From assembly GCA_025774805.1 (NCBI GenBank), contig JALGZR010000135.1:1-7104 (forward strand): a DNA stretch of 7,104 nucleotides, in the 5' to 3' direction. The stretch comes from a bacterium (GTDB lineage Bacteria; ARS69). Below the pieces are notes generated by a model. The model was not told the origin of the DNA and made no database searches. It worked only from the letters and a program-made list of their open reading frames with translations. Below, one piece after another: positions 1,164-6,897 of this stretch. Both the position numbers and the translations under genes were made by a program. Numbering within the stretch: position 1 is the first letter of the stretch; every line of letters starts with the position of its first letter.

Positions 1164-4100
1164 CTAGTAGGCCTTCACGCTGGCCACGGGTACGTACGCT
1201 CGCCGCACGGCGACCTCGTTCCCCCCGACGTCGTACCCGCGGAACGCGAGTACGCCCTTTCCGAGGGGGAGATCGCGCACGACCTCGTCCAGGTTGATTC
1301 GGATCTCGTCGCCGGTGGTGTCGTACGAGATCAACGTCCGGTCATCCATCATCACGTCGAGGCGCGCGACGTTGCGCGACCGGACGACCGCGGCCGGCAG
1401 ATAGCCCTCACCTTCGTCGAAGGTCACCTCGATGTCGTACCGCTCCAGCTTGGAGAGGACCTCCCCTGCAAAGCGCATCAAACCTTCGTTCGCTCCGAGA
1501 ACGTCCTTCTCCTTCCTCATCCGGTACACCTCGTCGGGCGCGACGCCGTAGTCCTCCACGAGAACGCCTTCTTTGGGGCCCACGCGCATGGTTCGCCGCA
1601 TGGACACCCGCATGTCGCAGCCGCGGGGCAGTCTCGCATACGGGGACGGCGCCTCCGGATCGTCGACGGAGTCCAAGAGCCAGCGGATCAGCCGGTGAGA
1701 CCAGACGTTCGCGCCACCGGCGCCCGTGGTGTCGTGGATGCCGATGATGCGCCCGATGTTGTGGTCGGCGAATCCGGCGGCGAAGATGTCCGTGGCGCTG
1801 TAGCACAGCGCGTCGGTGATCAGCACCACGGGGCCGTCCCAGGACCTCTCCGCCTCCTCCAGATCGCCCGGCGGGGTGATGGGATAGGCGAGCGAGTACG
1901 TCGCGCCTGTCGTGAGCGACTCCCACAGCGAGGGTGTCCAGGGCTTCAGGGTCTCGTGTCCCTTGGACAGCCAGTAGTTCAGCCCGCTGATGATGAACTG
2001 AGCCTTCTGCGGCTGGATCCTTCTCGAGGTCAGGGACTGGAGCAGGCGCTCGGCCGCCACGATGTTGCCGCCCGGGTTGCCGCGGACGTCGATCACCAGG
2101 CCTTCCTCCGGCAGTTCGTTCTGCACGAGCCTGGCGAACTCCTTGACGAACGTGGCGGGCTCGTCTGTTCCGAAGCTGAAGATGCGGACATATCCGTACT
2201 TCTCCTCCGCCCCCTGGAGAGGCGCCGCGCGGAAGTTCGTGGGGAAGACGGTCTCGATTTCCCCCTTCCGGCCCGGGATCGGATCGAGGCACCCCGCCTC
2301 CTCGCGGTCGCGCGTCTTCTGCAGCAGGTCGTAGGCGAACAGAGTCGTCTTCACCCGGTGAATGTCGTAGGTCGCCGCGTCGAGACCGACCGCGAGCCCG
2401 GTCTCGATCATGCGTTCCGGATTCAGGCTGTCGGGGTCGACCCCGCGCTCGAAGGCGAGCCATGGCTGTGTCCACTCCCGGACTTCGCCGCTTCGATCCC
2501 GGTAGGTCAGGGTGACCCACTCCTCGTCGGGGGGCAGTCCCGATGCCAGCGGGCGAATCGTCAGCGCGTCGAGCCCCCGGGCGTGCCGGGCCGCTTCGTT
2601 GCAGCCTCCCTGCCTTTCTCCGTTCAGGGCGATGGCCCGCTCGATCGGGACGCCGTTCCAGTAGAGCGGCTCGACGCCAGGCACGAAGGTGCCCGCCGCG
2701 GCGCCCGCCCTCGGCCCGGCGCCCGCCACGACCTTGGAGACCACGTACTTCCTAATGTCCTTGTCCCAGAACTCCTCGATCAGGAAGGGAAGCCACGCGG
2801 TCAGGTACCGAAACGGTCTCGGCAGGCGGTAGGACGTGTGGAGGTCTTTCAGCGATCCGAACGCGCGCGTGATCTCGTTGTGGAACTCGATCTCCGGCGT
2901 GCGATCCTCCTCCGACTCGTCCTCGAGACGGTGTCTCAGGAGTCGCAGCCGCTGCACCGGATCGACCGCATGCCGGGCGCGCTTGAACGGAAGATGAACG
3001 TAGTTCTGCTCGAGGAGAACGATGGCCTGATCCACGATCCGCTTGCGCTCGTGCGGCGTCAGGCCGCCGGCCCTCTCCAGGGCTGAACGGAGGGAACGGG
3101 TCGTCTTCCGGAGCTCGGGTGCCACCGCCGCCGGATCGTCTCCCAGAAACTTCGCGTCATCGGGCAGCGGGGGGGTCTCGCCGTGGATCGTGAAGAGCCC
3201 GTTGCGCACGCGGGTCGGGATGCTATTGCAGTGGTAGAGCTTCCCGAGAAACTGATCGTCGTCCACGAAGGTGATCGGTTCGAGCCTCATGGGTCCCTCG
3301 ACCCACTCCGTGTACTTGCCCTCCGCGAGGTTGAACTCCTTGACATCGGTCTCGCCGAAGTCGTCGATCATTCGCCAGTACACGCCGCCGGCGTCCAGTG
3401 CGCCTCCGAACAGACCCGCGTTGTAGGCGTTCTCCACCGCCTCCGCCCGGTCCTCGATGTGGAGAAGGGCGTCCCGGAGCTCCTCCGTCGCCGCCTCGAG
3501 GGTCAGTCCTCCCATCCACTGGGGCGGATTGTCCTGCGTGAGATACAGCTGCCGCTTGTCGGCCCCGATGCGGACGTCCTCGAGCTCGCTCGGGGGGAAC
3601 CCGAAACGGTTCATGTAGCTCTTCTGTCCGAATCGAGGGGTACCGTCGATCGTGACGAGCCGGACGTCCGACTCCGTCGCCTTGATCAGGTGCATGTAGG
3701 AGTCCGCGTCCTGACCGTCGATGACGAGAAGATCGGCGAGCTTGTCCGGCGCGATCGTGCCGAGGAGCGAGTCCCACCCGAGGATCTCGGCCCCGTTCCT
3801 CGTGGCCATCGCGACAAGGTCCTCCAGCGTGAAGACCGTCTCTCCGTATTCCTCCTCGTACTCGCGGTTGGCCACCCAGGCCACCTTGAGCTCACCCAGC
3901 AGGTTCTTGCTTCCGGACGGCGCCCAGTCGCATCCGATCCCGATCAAGACCTCCGATTCCTTGGCCGCCTTGATGTCCATCGTCTCGCCGTAGAGCATGT
4001 AGTTGCTGAGCGGCGACCAGACGACCGAGCCTCCATAGCCCTTGATGACTGCGAAGTCCTCCGGCTCGAGCGCGTTGCAGTGGATTCCGCAGAAGGATTC

Positions 4101-4775
4101 GGCCAGCGCCCAACGCTCCGGAACACCAGGGAACTTCAGCCGGTGAAACCAGCCGCGCGCCGTGTCGTCTATGCCCTCGCTGAGGTGCTGCAGGTAGCAC
4201 TTGCACTTCTCGGCTGTCAGCTTCGCGAGGTAGTCAACCTGGTCGTTCGTGTCCGGGTTCGCGACCCGGGCGCCGGCACTCTCGAGATCCGGGTGAAGCG
4301 GTTTCTCGACGTTCCGGACGATGCCCTGGAAGCACTGCTTCATGCCCTCCTTGGAATCGTAGAGCGTGATACCCTGCGAGGTCGTCGTCCCCCCCAGGAG
4401 ACACCGGCACTCCGTGAAGCGCACGAGGGCGGGCATCGCGGCCGCGTCTCGGCCGAGGATCTGCGCGGGTTTGGCGATTCTCCTCTTGTACTCGTCGGAG
4501 CCTCTCCACTGGCCGTTGTTCGTGTACTTCCGCGGCGGGTCGTACCAGAGGGGCATCGCGTTGTAGCAGAGATGATTGTGGAGCTCGACCAGCCCCGGGT
4601 AGATCGTGTCCTTCGTGTCAATCCAGACCGCGCCCCCAAACTCCGGGGGAATCGGATCGGATGCCGCCCGGACGTGCTTGATCCGGTTGCCGTCGACGAA
4701 GACCGCGCCGTCGTCGATGATGCCGTCGGGTCCCATCGTGACGAGTCGCCCCTGGAGCACGTACTTCCCTGGCAT
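1164..4775 (-). CDS. amidohydrolase (deaminase/chlorohydrolase type) fused to an S41-family serine peptidase domain
   Basis: One uninterrupted frame encodes 1203 residues. Residues 1-390 form a complete metal-dependent amidohydrolase of the cytosine-deaminase/TrzN/SAH-deaminase group: small beta-sandwich start (VLQGRLVTMGPDGIIDDG), HxH at 66/68 (ELHNHL), His197 with Glu200 (HLSEG), His232 (GIHCNAL), Asp283 (GCDWAPSGSKNLLGEL), and the closing DKLADLLVID. This is the mononuclear metal set that hydrolyses ring C-N or C-Cl bonds. Residues 390-560 are a linker I cannot assign. Residues 570-1100 are S41-like: a helical lead-in ending DLHTSY (His646), a PDZ-like stretch about 695-770, RGNPGGN at 898-904, and the nucleophile motif CYSATDIFAAGFADH with Ser993. 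His646 matches the position of the His in the Ser-His-Glu set of tricorn-type S41 enzymes rather than the Ser-Lys dyad of CtpA (inference). The last 100 residues look beta-rich. No signal peptide or membrane segment is seen, unusual for S41. AAGGAGGT at 4782-4789 fixes the ATG start. Substrates of both halves are unknown. Confidence 0.88.
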   Translation of the reverse strand: MPGKYVLQGRLVTMGPDGIIDDGAVFVDGNRIKHVRAASDPIPPEFGGAVWIDTKDTIYPGLVELHNHLCYNAMPLWYDPPRKYTNNGQWRGSDEYKRRIAKPAQILGRDAAAMPALVRFTECRCLLGGTTTSQGITLYDSKEGMKQCFQGIVRNVEKPLHPDLESAGARVANPDTNDQVDYLAKLTAEKCKCYLQHLSEGIDDTARGWFHRLKFPGVPERWALAESFCGIHCNALEPEDFAVIKGYGGSVVWSPLSNYMLYGETMDIKAAKESEVLIGIGCDWAPSGSKNLLGELKVAWVANREYEEEYGETVFTLEDLVAMATRNGAEILGWDSLLGTIAPDKLADLLVIDGQDADSYMHLIKATESDVRLVTIDGTPRFGQKSYMNRFGFPPSELEDVRIGADKRQLYLTQDNPPQWMGGLTLEAATEELRDALLHIEDRAEAVENAYNAGLFGGALDAGGVYWRMIDDFGETDVKEFNLAEGKYTEWVEGPMRLEPITFVDDDQFLGKLYHCNSIPTRVRNGLFTIHGETPPLPDDAKFLGDDPAAVAPELRKTTRSLRSALERAGGLTPHERKRIVDQAIVLLEQNYVHLPFKRARHAVDPVQRLRLLRHRLEDESEEDRTPEIEFHNEITRAFGSLKDLHTSYRLPRPFRYLTAWLPFLIEEFWDKDIRKYVVSKVVAGAGPRAGAAAGTFVPGVEPLYWNGVPIERAIALNGERQGGCNEAARHARGLDALTIRPLASGLPPDEEWVTLTYRDRSGEVREWTQPWLAFERGVDPDSLNPERMIETGLAVGLDAATYDIHRVKTTLFAYDLLQKTRDREEAGCLDPIPGRKGEIETVFPTNFRAAPLQGAEEKYGYVRIFSFGTDEPATFVKEFARLVQNELPEEGLVIDVRGNPGGNIVAAERLLQSLTSRRIQPQKAQFIISGLNYWLSKGHETLKPWTPSLWESLTTGATYSLAYPITPPGDLEEAERSWDGPVVLITDALCYSATDIFAAGFADHNIGRIIGIHDTTGAGGANVWSHRLIRWLLDSVDDPEAPSPYARLPRGCDMRVSMRRTMRVGPKEGVLVEDYGVAPDEVYRMRKEKDVLGANEGLMRFAGEVLSKLERYDIEVTFDEGEGYLPAAVVRSRNVARLDVMMDDRTLISYDTTGDEIRINLDEVVRDLPLGKGVLAFRGYDVGGNEVAVRRAYVPVASVKAY

Positions 4776-5083: not shown

Positions 5084-5125
5084 CTCACCAGGCTCGTCGC
5101 GAGGCTGGTGAGAAGTGCAGGCTAG
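5078..5125. repeat. compact palindromic repeat, short relative of the 6095-6277 element
   Basis: Positions 5084-5112 form a nearly perfect hairpin. CTCACCAG (5084-5091) pairs with CTGGTGAG (5105-5112) and CTCG (5093-5096) with CGAG (5100-5103), with one G-G mismatch and a TCG loop. The left flank resembles the left arm of the larger element (shared CTCACCAGGCTCG then CGCGAGG). The right part, GAGGCTGGTGAGA then GCAGGCTAG, matches that element's right arm in 23 of 25 positions. It therefore looks like an element whose central part is missing. The final CTAG overlaps the stop codon of the metallopeptidase gene. With no T-run on either side it is not a standard terminator, although the hairpin lies 9 bases past the stop and could stabilise or end that message. 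Confidence 0.75.
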
Positions 5126-6094: not shown

Positions 6095-6277
6095 CTAGCC
6101 TGCGTTTCTCACCAGGCTCGACGCGAGGTACAAGGATAGGCGTGGCTGGCGAGGAGATGGGGGGCTTTCGCCCGAGGCGGGGCCGTAGCCCCGTCGCAGG
6201 GCGGAAGCCGCGCAGTGACGAAGCCAGGCGCGGCTTTGCCGCTGCCGCAGTAGAGGCTGGTGAGATACGCAGGCTAG
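6095..6277. repeat. 183-bp structured repeat with 25-bp terminal inverted repeats (MITE- or REP-like)
   Basis: The arms at 6095-6119 and 6253-6277 are inverse copies agreeing at 23 of 25 positions, each ending in CTAG at the outer edge. The interior folds further. GGCTTTCGCCC (6163-6173) pairs with GGGCGGAAGCC (6199-6209) over 11 pairs including one G-U. Inside this, CGGGGC (6178-6183) pairs with GCCCCG (6188-6193) round a CGTA loop. GCGGC-TTT-GCCGC (6230-6242) makes a side hairpin, and AAGCCGCGC (6205-6213) can instead pair with GCGCGGCTT (6228-6236). No transposase-like frame is present; the open frame crossing it shows no real protein. A shortened relative lies at 5078-5125. It sits between divergent genes, so a non-autonomous mobile element, a dispersed REP-type repeat or a structured RNA are all possible. 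I cannot assign it to a named family. Confidence 0.78.
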
Positions 6278-6307: not shown

Positions 6308-6334
6308 ATCGAGGTCCAGTCGGGTGCGAACCGG

Positions 6335-6340
6335 GGAGGA
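6335..6340 (+). promoter_or_regulatory. Shine-Dalgarno site deciding the selenoprotein start
   Basis: GGAGGA ends five bases before the GTG at 6346-6348. It selects this start over the in-frame ATG at 6142, which lies inside the repeat element and whose first 68 codons are unlike the family. Confidence 0.7.
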
Positions 6341-6345
6341 ACGAC

Positions 6346-6897
6346 GTGGCCTGGATCGAGACGATCGACGAGACGAACGCGCGCGGGAAGCTGGCGCTGA
6401 TCTACGAACGAATGCGGGGTCCTCGCGGGACGAGGGTCGCGAACATCCTGAAGAGTCAGTCTCTCGACCCCCACTCGCTGGCGGCTCACCACGCGTTCTA
6501 CCGCTCGGTGATGAGCGGCTCGAAGACGCTGCCTCGGGCGGATCGGGAGATGATCGCCGTGACCGTGAGCCGGATCAACGGGTGTCACTACTGAGTCGTT
6601 CACCACCGGCGCAGTCTGCGCCACTGGCTCGGGGACGAGGAGCTGGCCGACCGGATCACGGAGGATCCGGAGAGCGCGGGGCTCGACGCGCGGCGTCTCG
6701 AAATGCTCCGCTTCGCATCGAAGCTCACGCAGGCCCCCTCCACCATGACCGATGCGGACGCGCAGGGTCTACGAAGCGCCGGACACTCCGACGACGACAT
6801 CCTCCGGGTTGTTCAGGTGACGGGCTACTTCGCGTTCGTCAACCGTCTGGCGGACGGCCTCGGCGTCGAGCTGGAGCCCGAGAACGACGGGGAATGA
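6346..6897 (+). CDS. predicted selenoprotein: AhpD/carboxymuconolactone-decarboxylase-fold peroxidase-related protein, Sec at codon 83
   Basis: Read with the TGA at 6592-6594 as selenocysteine, this is a 183-residue protein of the AhpD-like 'peroxidase-related enzyme' family, small all-helical thiol peroxidases or disulfide reductases of the cytoplasm. The family active site CxxC appears as Cys80-His-Tyr-Sec83 (RINGCHY-U-VVHH). Glu68 lies 12 residues before Cys80 and His87 seven after it, the same spacing as the catalytic Glu118, Cys130 and His137 of M. tuberculosis AhpD. Homology continues past the TGA in the same frame: LDARRLEMLRFASKLTQAP, then DDILRVVQVTGYFAFVNRLA, then DGLGVELEP, the usual C-terminus. 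Sec would replace the resolving-position Cys. A SECIS-like hairpin follows the TGA directly. The true stop is also TGA (6895-6897). The GTG start has GGAGGA five bases ahead. Ordinary gene calling would split it into pieces ending at 6594 and starting at 6703. A real nonsense mutation of a Cys codon (TGC/TGT to TGA) is the alternative, but the hairpin and otherwise intact frame argue against it. Confidence 0.82.
6595..6638 (+). promoter_or_regulatory. candidate bacterial SECIS element
   Basis: Right after the in-frame TGA the RNA can fold so that GGCGCA (6608-6613) pairs perfectly with TGCGCC (6617-6622) round a GTC loop. Below a 2x2 internal loop CCA (6603-6605) pairs with TGG (6625-6627), and TCGT (6596-6599) may pair with ACGA (6635-6638). 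The loop begins 19 bases after the TGA and starts with G. This fits the known bacterial pattern: a short loop with G in its first two positions, about 16 to 37 bases from the UGA. The apex GCAGTCTGC closely resembles the GCAGGUCUGC apex of E. coli fdhF as I remember it. It would bind SelB carrying Sec-tRNA. Confidence 0.72.

Follow-up and report, generated by a model that had tools for sequence, protein, structure and literature searches.

An AhpD-like gene with an in-frame TGA in its active site, predicted to encode a selenoprotein

We identified an AhpD-like gene with an in-frame TGA at positions 6346–6897 (forward strand) of the window, the whole stretch of 7,104 nucleotides of bacterial DNA under analysis. 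The observation, first made in a preliminary description of the sequence, was right in every detail checked. The gene very probably encodes a 183-residue AhpD-like peroxidase or disulphide-relay protein of the TIGR01926 family in which selenocysteine (Sec) takes the place of the second active-site cysteine (CxxU). This reading is well supported by a homologue column that holds either TGA or a Cys codon, by a model-conforming hairpin that is nearly confined to the genes with TGA, by the presence of selA, selB and tRNA-Sec (selC) in the host, and by the co-occurrence of SelA with the TGA-containing genes across genomes.

Reading frame and active site

The frame opens with a GTG codon, five nucleotides downstream of a Shine-Dalgarno-like sequence (GGGGAGGA, 6333–6340, forward strand) read from the sequence, and runs for 183 codons to a terminal TGA (6895–6897). 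The first residues (VAWIETIDE) align with MAWIETIDE in relatives. The sole internal stop is the TGA at codon 83 (6592–6594, forward strand), which lies in the context Cys80-His-Tyr-TGA-Val-Val-His-His87 and is followed by exactly 100 sense codons, as initially described. The read-through product matches the TIGR01926 model ("peroxidase-related enzyme") with an E-value of 2.4e-41 and a score of 141.5 bits (curated cut-off, 81.8). The match covers profile positions 2–178 of 178 and residues 3–179 of the protein, that is, both sides of the TGA. The Pfam CMD domain also matches the read-through product (1.6e-12). Profile scans of four window proteins detected no member of an ahpC-like family. Elsewhere in the window, the reverse strand (1164–4775) encodes a 1203-residue protein that joins amidohydrolase and S41 peptidase domains.

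The active-site stretch (6547–6606, forward strand) comprises Glu68 (6547–6549), Cys80 (6583–6585), Tyr82 (6589–6591), the predicted Sec83 (6592–6594) and His87 (6604–6606). The residues follow the AhpD pattern Glu-x11-Cys-x2-Cys/Sec-x3-His, and the gaps between E68, C80, U83 and H87 (12, 3 and 4) equal those of the relay residues of Mycobacterium tuberculosis AhpD, Glu118-Cys130-Cys133-His137 (PMC3141380), which bears out the catalytic spacing proposed earlier for Glu68, Cys80 and His87. Furthermore, Tyr82 stands where PA0269 of Pseudomonas aeruginosa has Tyr50 (PMC3141380). Both M. tuberculosis AhpD and PA0269 are CxxC proteins with a helical-hairpin active site of Glu, Cys, His or Tyr, Cys and His at spacing identical to that of the window protein (PMC3141380), which differs from them in its predicted Sec for the second Cys and is only distantly similar overall. 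Solved structures of peroxidase-related proteins (2pfx, 3c1l, 2oyo and 6k40) are homologous over approximately 145–170 residues (E-values from 8e-29 to 9e-25), and the best of these values makes the fold clear. The four proteins have Cys at the position of the predicted Sec, with 2pfx the only one shown in the alignment. By analogy with these families, Glu68, Tyr82 and His87 would activate the Cys80-Sec83 pair, which may then reduce peroxides or a partner protein and cycle via a selenenylsulphide.

Codon column and hairpin in homologous genes

The TGA occupies the second Cys position of the CxxC motif, and a search for homologues aligned through it, proposed in the preliminary description as a check, recovered relatives with either TGA (33 genes) or a Cys codon (TGT or TGC, 24 genes) in the same column. 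The TGA genes come from several phyla. A scan of a genome collection returned ten homologous loci with 44–53% identity, and the protein identity to the TGA-containing relatives (45–54%) spans the TGA; further homologues were drawn from 386 whole genomes. For example, metagenome-assembled genomes (MAGs) of Planctomycetota, Deltaproteobacteria, Chloroflexi and Marinimicrobia carry TGA at this codon, whereas the codon is TGC in Longimonas and in a Rhodothermaceae MAG. The column contained neither TAA nor TAG in any homologous gene fetched. Its single exception among the fetched loci, a CTG, belongs to a diverged neighbouring paralogue. At a GC content of 66%, the open frame after the TGA would by itself be weak evidence. 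Chance is nonetheless not the explanation: the TGA column is shared by 33 homologous genes, whose frames are otherwise free of internal stops.

The host has a second AhpD-like gene (G000:C177:32137–32595; locus L047, 1501–1959, reverse strand) whose Sec column reads CEY-TGA and whose hairpin has 7 bp and a GGC loop. Two other AhpD-like genes with TGA (L102 and L052) have Ser in place of the first Cys of the motif (SxxU), a case of Sec retained without its usual partner.

A bacterial SECIS element is expected to have a stem of 4–16 bp, a loop of 3–9 nt with G in one of its first two positions, a distance of 16–37 nt from the UGA, and a minimum free energy of at most −7.5 (PMC13188914). The sequence at 6608–6622 (forward strand) can fold into an upper stem-loop that follows these rules: GGCGCA-GUC-UGCGCC, with 6 bp, a GUC loop and a distance of 19 nt or, equivalently, GGCGC-AGUCU-GCGCC, with 5 bp, an AGUCU loop and a distance of 18 nt (−8.7 kcal/mol). 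With the innermost A-U pair opened, the AGUCU loop has the consensus pattern N1-G-[G/U]-N-N2. We judged the element by the published structural rules because an Rfam search of the window returned no match to a SECIS family. Taken alone, the hairpin is unexceptional (z = −1.04 against shuffles; p = 0.10 against synonymous recoding), so the argument for a SECIS rests on the comparison of homologues with TGA and with Cys.

Of the 33 TGA genes, 27 have a hairpin with an energy of −5 kcal/mol or below and G in the first two positions of its loop; of the 24 Cys genes, 1 does. The two groups also differed in hairpin energy (p = 3e-9) and in z-scores from synonymous-codon shuffles (p = 3e-6); both tests count relatives as independent observations. 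The hairpin geometry of the window gene recurs in four Planctomycetota relatives, with one compensatory change. In a second geometry, present in twelve other relatives, two pairs are compensatory and 88% of cells pair, compared to 37–57% when the structure is slid. The best-supported mechanism is one in which SelB carrying Sec-tRNA-Sec would bind the hairpin just 3′ of the UGA, leading to the insertion of Sec at codon 83 in place of termination, as expected from the families to which the components belong. The residue placed at the UGA is inferred to be Sec and no other.

The distribution of codons and hairpins also bears on two other explanations for the TGA. It could stem from a fault of assembly or sequencing, or mark a pseudogene in which the TGC or TGT of an ordinary Cys protein has mutated, given that it is one base away from either codon and lies in a draft, MAG-like genome. 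Yet the same TGA recurs with a SECIS hairpin in 33 homologous genes across phyla, and the column and frames are free of TAA, TAG and scattered stops, making this explanation highly improbable. A variant genetic code that reads UGA as Trp or Gly would accommodate the one UGA in frame. However, TGA occurs only where relatives carry Cys and has a hairpin after it, the host has tRNA-Sec, SelA and SelB, and the gene itself ends at a TGA (6895–6897) after which no model-conforming SECIS was seen. The chance of a variant code is, thus, close to nil.

Gene decay in relatives had been named as a sign against a functional selenoprotein. We found no in-frame stops in the fetched loci other than the TGA of the Sec column and the terminal ones, but two relatives do have damaged frames. 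The frame of one (L028) is broken upstream of its TGA. The other is the only orthologue of the window gene in the same family (genome G004; locus L033, 1504–1985, reverse strand), which is frameshifted and lacks a stretch of approximately 49 nt (counted by hand) that spans the UGA and hairpin.

Selenocysteine machinery and the missing selD

The preliminary description held that the host should have selA, selB, selC and selD. The first three are present in its draft genome (5.1 Mb in 284 contigs, 96% complete and 5% contaminated): selA at C79:61811 (E 1e-135), selB at C266:19630 (E 2.4e-114) and a tRNA-Sec gene with a TCA anticodon at C171:8216. selD, on the other hand, is not in the assembly. 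Across a sample of 386 genomes, SelA was present in 25 of the 27 with a TGA-containing AhpD-like match, compared to 171 overall (44%; Fisher p = 7e-8) and to 16 of the 30 genomes that had only other matches (Fisher p = 0.001). These co-occurrences were counted by hand, and the TGA position was confirmed for the fetched loci only. One genome (G194, 98% complete) had a TGA-interrupted AhpD-like match but yielded no SelA hit at an E-value of 1e-40.

Directly upstream of the gene is a 183-bp element (window positions 6095–6277) with near-identical terminal inverted repeats (CTAGCCTGCGTTTCTCACCAG...). The element is one of a highly abundant, MITE-like family of repeats. Three arms of the repeat lie in the window, one of them at 5105–5125, and the 5.1-Mb host genome has 299 copies of the arm (0 in a reversed control), often paired approximately 161 bp apart. 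We rejected the possibility that the window contig is a contaminant of the bin, because this repeat recurs in the assembly, with copies on the selA contig as well.

Two selD models had no match in the incomplete 5.1-Mb draft assembly. A weak candidate proved to be purM (348 aa), and the three PF00586 matches in the assembly fall in two genes, purM and an 846-aa gene that has two such domains and is probably purL. All four genomes of the same family (G001–G004) have a selD with UGA, in a conserved place between a conserved 'FPRGEW' gene and a peptidyl-prolyl isomerase gene (in G004 and, as far as contigs reach, in the other relatives). In the host, the genes that flank selD are adjacent (contig C95; locus L122, reverse complement 12560–12960), and the reading frame of the upstream gene runs straight into the final 16 or so codons of selD. 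The junction, which looks clean, is either a real excision of selD or a local misassembly. Because the host genome is incomplete, the absence of selD is unproven, and the gene may lie elsewhere in the unassembled part.

These findings raise the possibility that this lineage is losing Sec decoding: a gene that evolved as a selenoprotein gene would, after the excision of selD, now end translation at the UGA and yield an 82-residue fragment. On a contiguous contig, the conserved selD site retains no more than the 3′ end of the gene, no second copy turned up, and in G004 the orthologue has a frameshift across the UGA and SECIS. However, the host retains intact selA, selB, tRNA-Sec and a second UGA-bearing AhpD-like gene, the window frame is otherwise undamaged, and conservation with the G004 orthologue is at least as high after the TGA (66%) as before it (56%). 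With the host genome a draft of 284 contigs, we consider such a loss unlikely. A host that lacks a standard SelD yet decodes Sec with intact SelA, SelB and tRNA-Sec, drawing on another source of selenophosphate, is a very unlikely scenario. The selD gap and the G004 deletion lower our confidence that this strain makes the selenoprotein today; past selection of the gene as a selenoprotein is unaffected.

A further member of a known selenoprotein family

AhpD-like selenoproteins with a CxxU motif are an established class, as the preliminary description had recognized. A survey of the Sargasso Sea reported 27 AhpD-like selenoprotein sequences in 2005 (PMC1088965), the 2008 GOS survey listed 299 sequences (AhpD-like 1; PMC2398784), and a 2026 review includes TIGR01926/COG2128 CxxU proteins among those containing Sec (PMC13188914). 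The window protein shares with these selenoproteins the family model, the CxxU motif and the type of SECIS just past the UGA. It differs from the catalogued TIGR01926 CxxU members in its host lineage, a sparsely sampled family, and in nothing else essential. The gene is, therefore, one more case of a selenoprotein family on record since 2005 and not a new kind.

The absence of selD from its conserved locus poses a small puzzle, which relocation to the unassembled part of the genome, an error of assembly, or a step in the loss of Sec synthesis by the lineage could each explain. Standard gene callers are expected to cut the protein at residue 82 or to label the gene a pseudogene. Recording it corrects the annotation and credits a sparsely sampled lineage of bacteria with the Sec trait.
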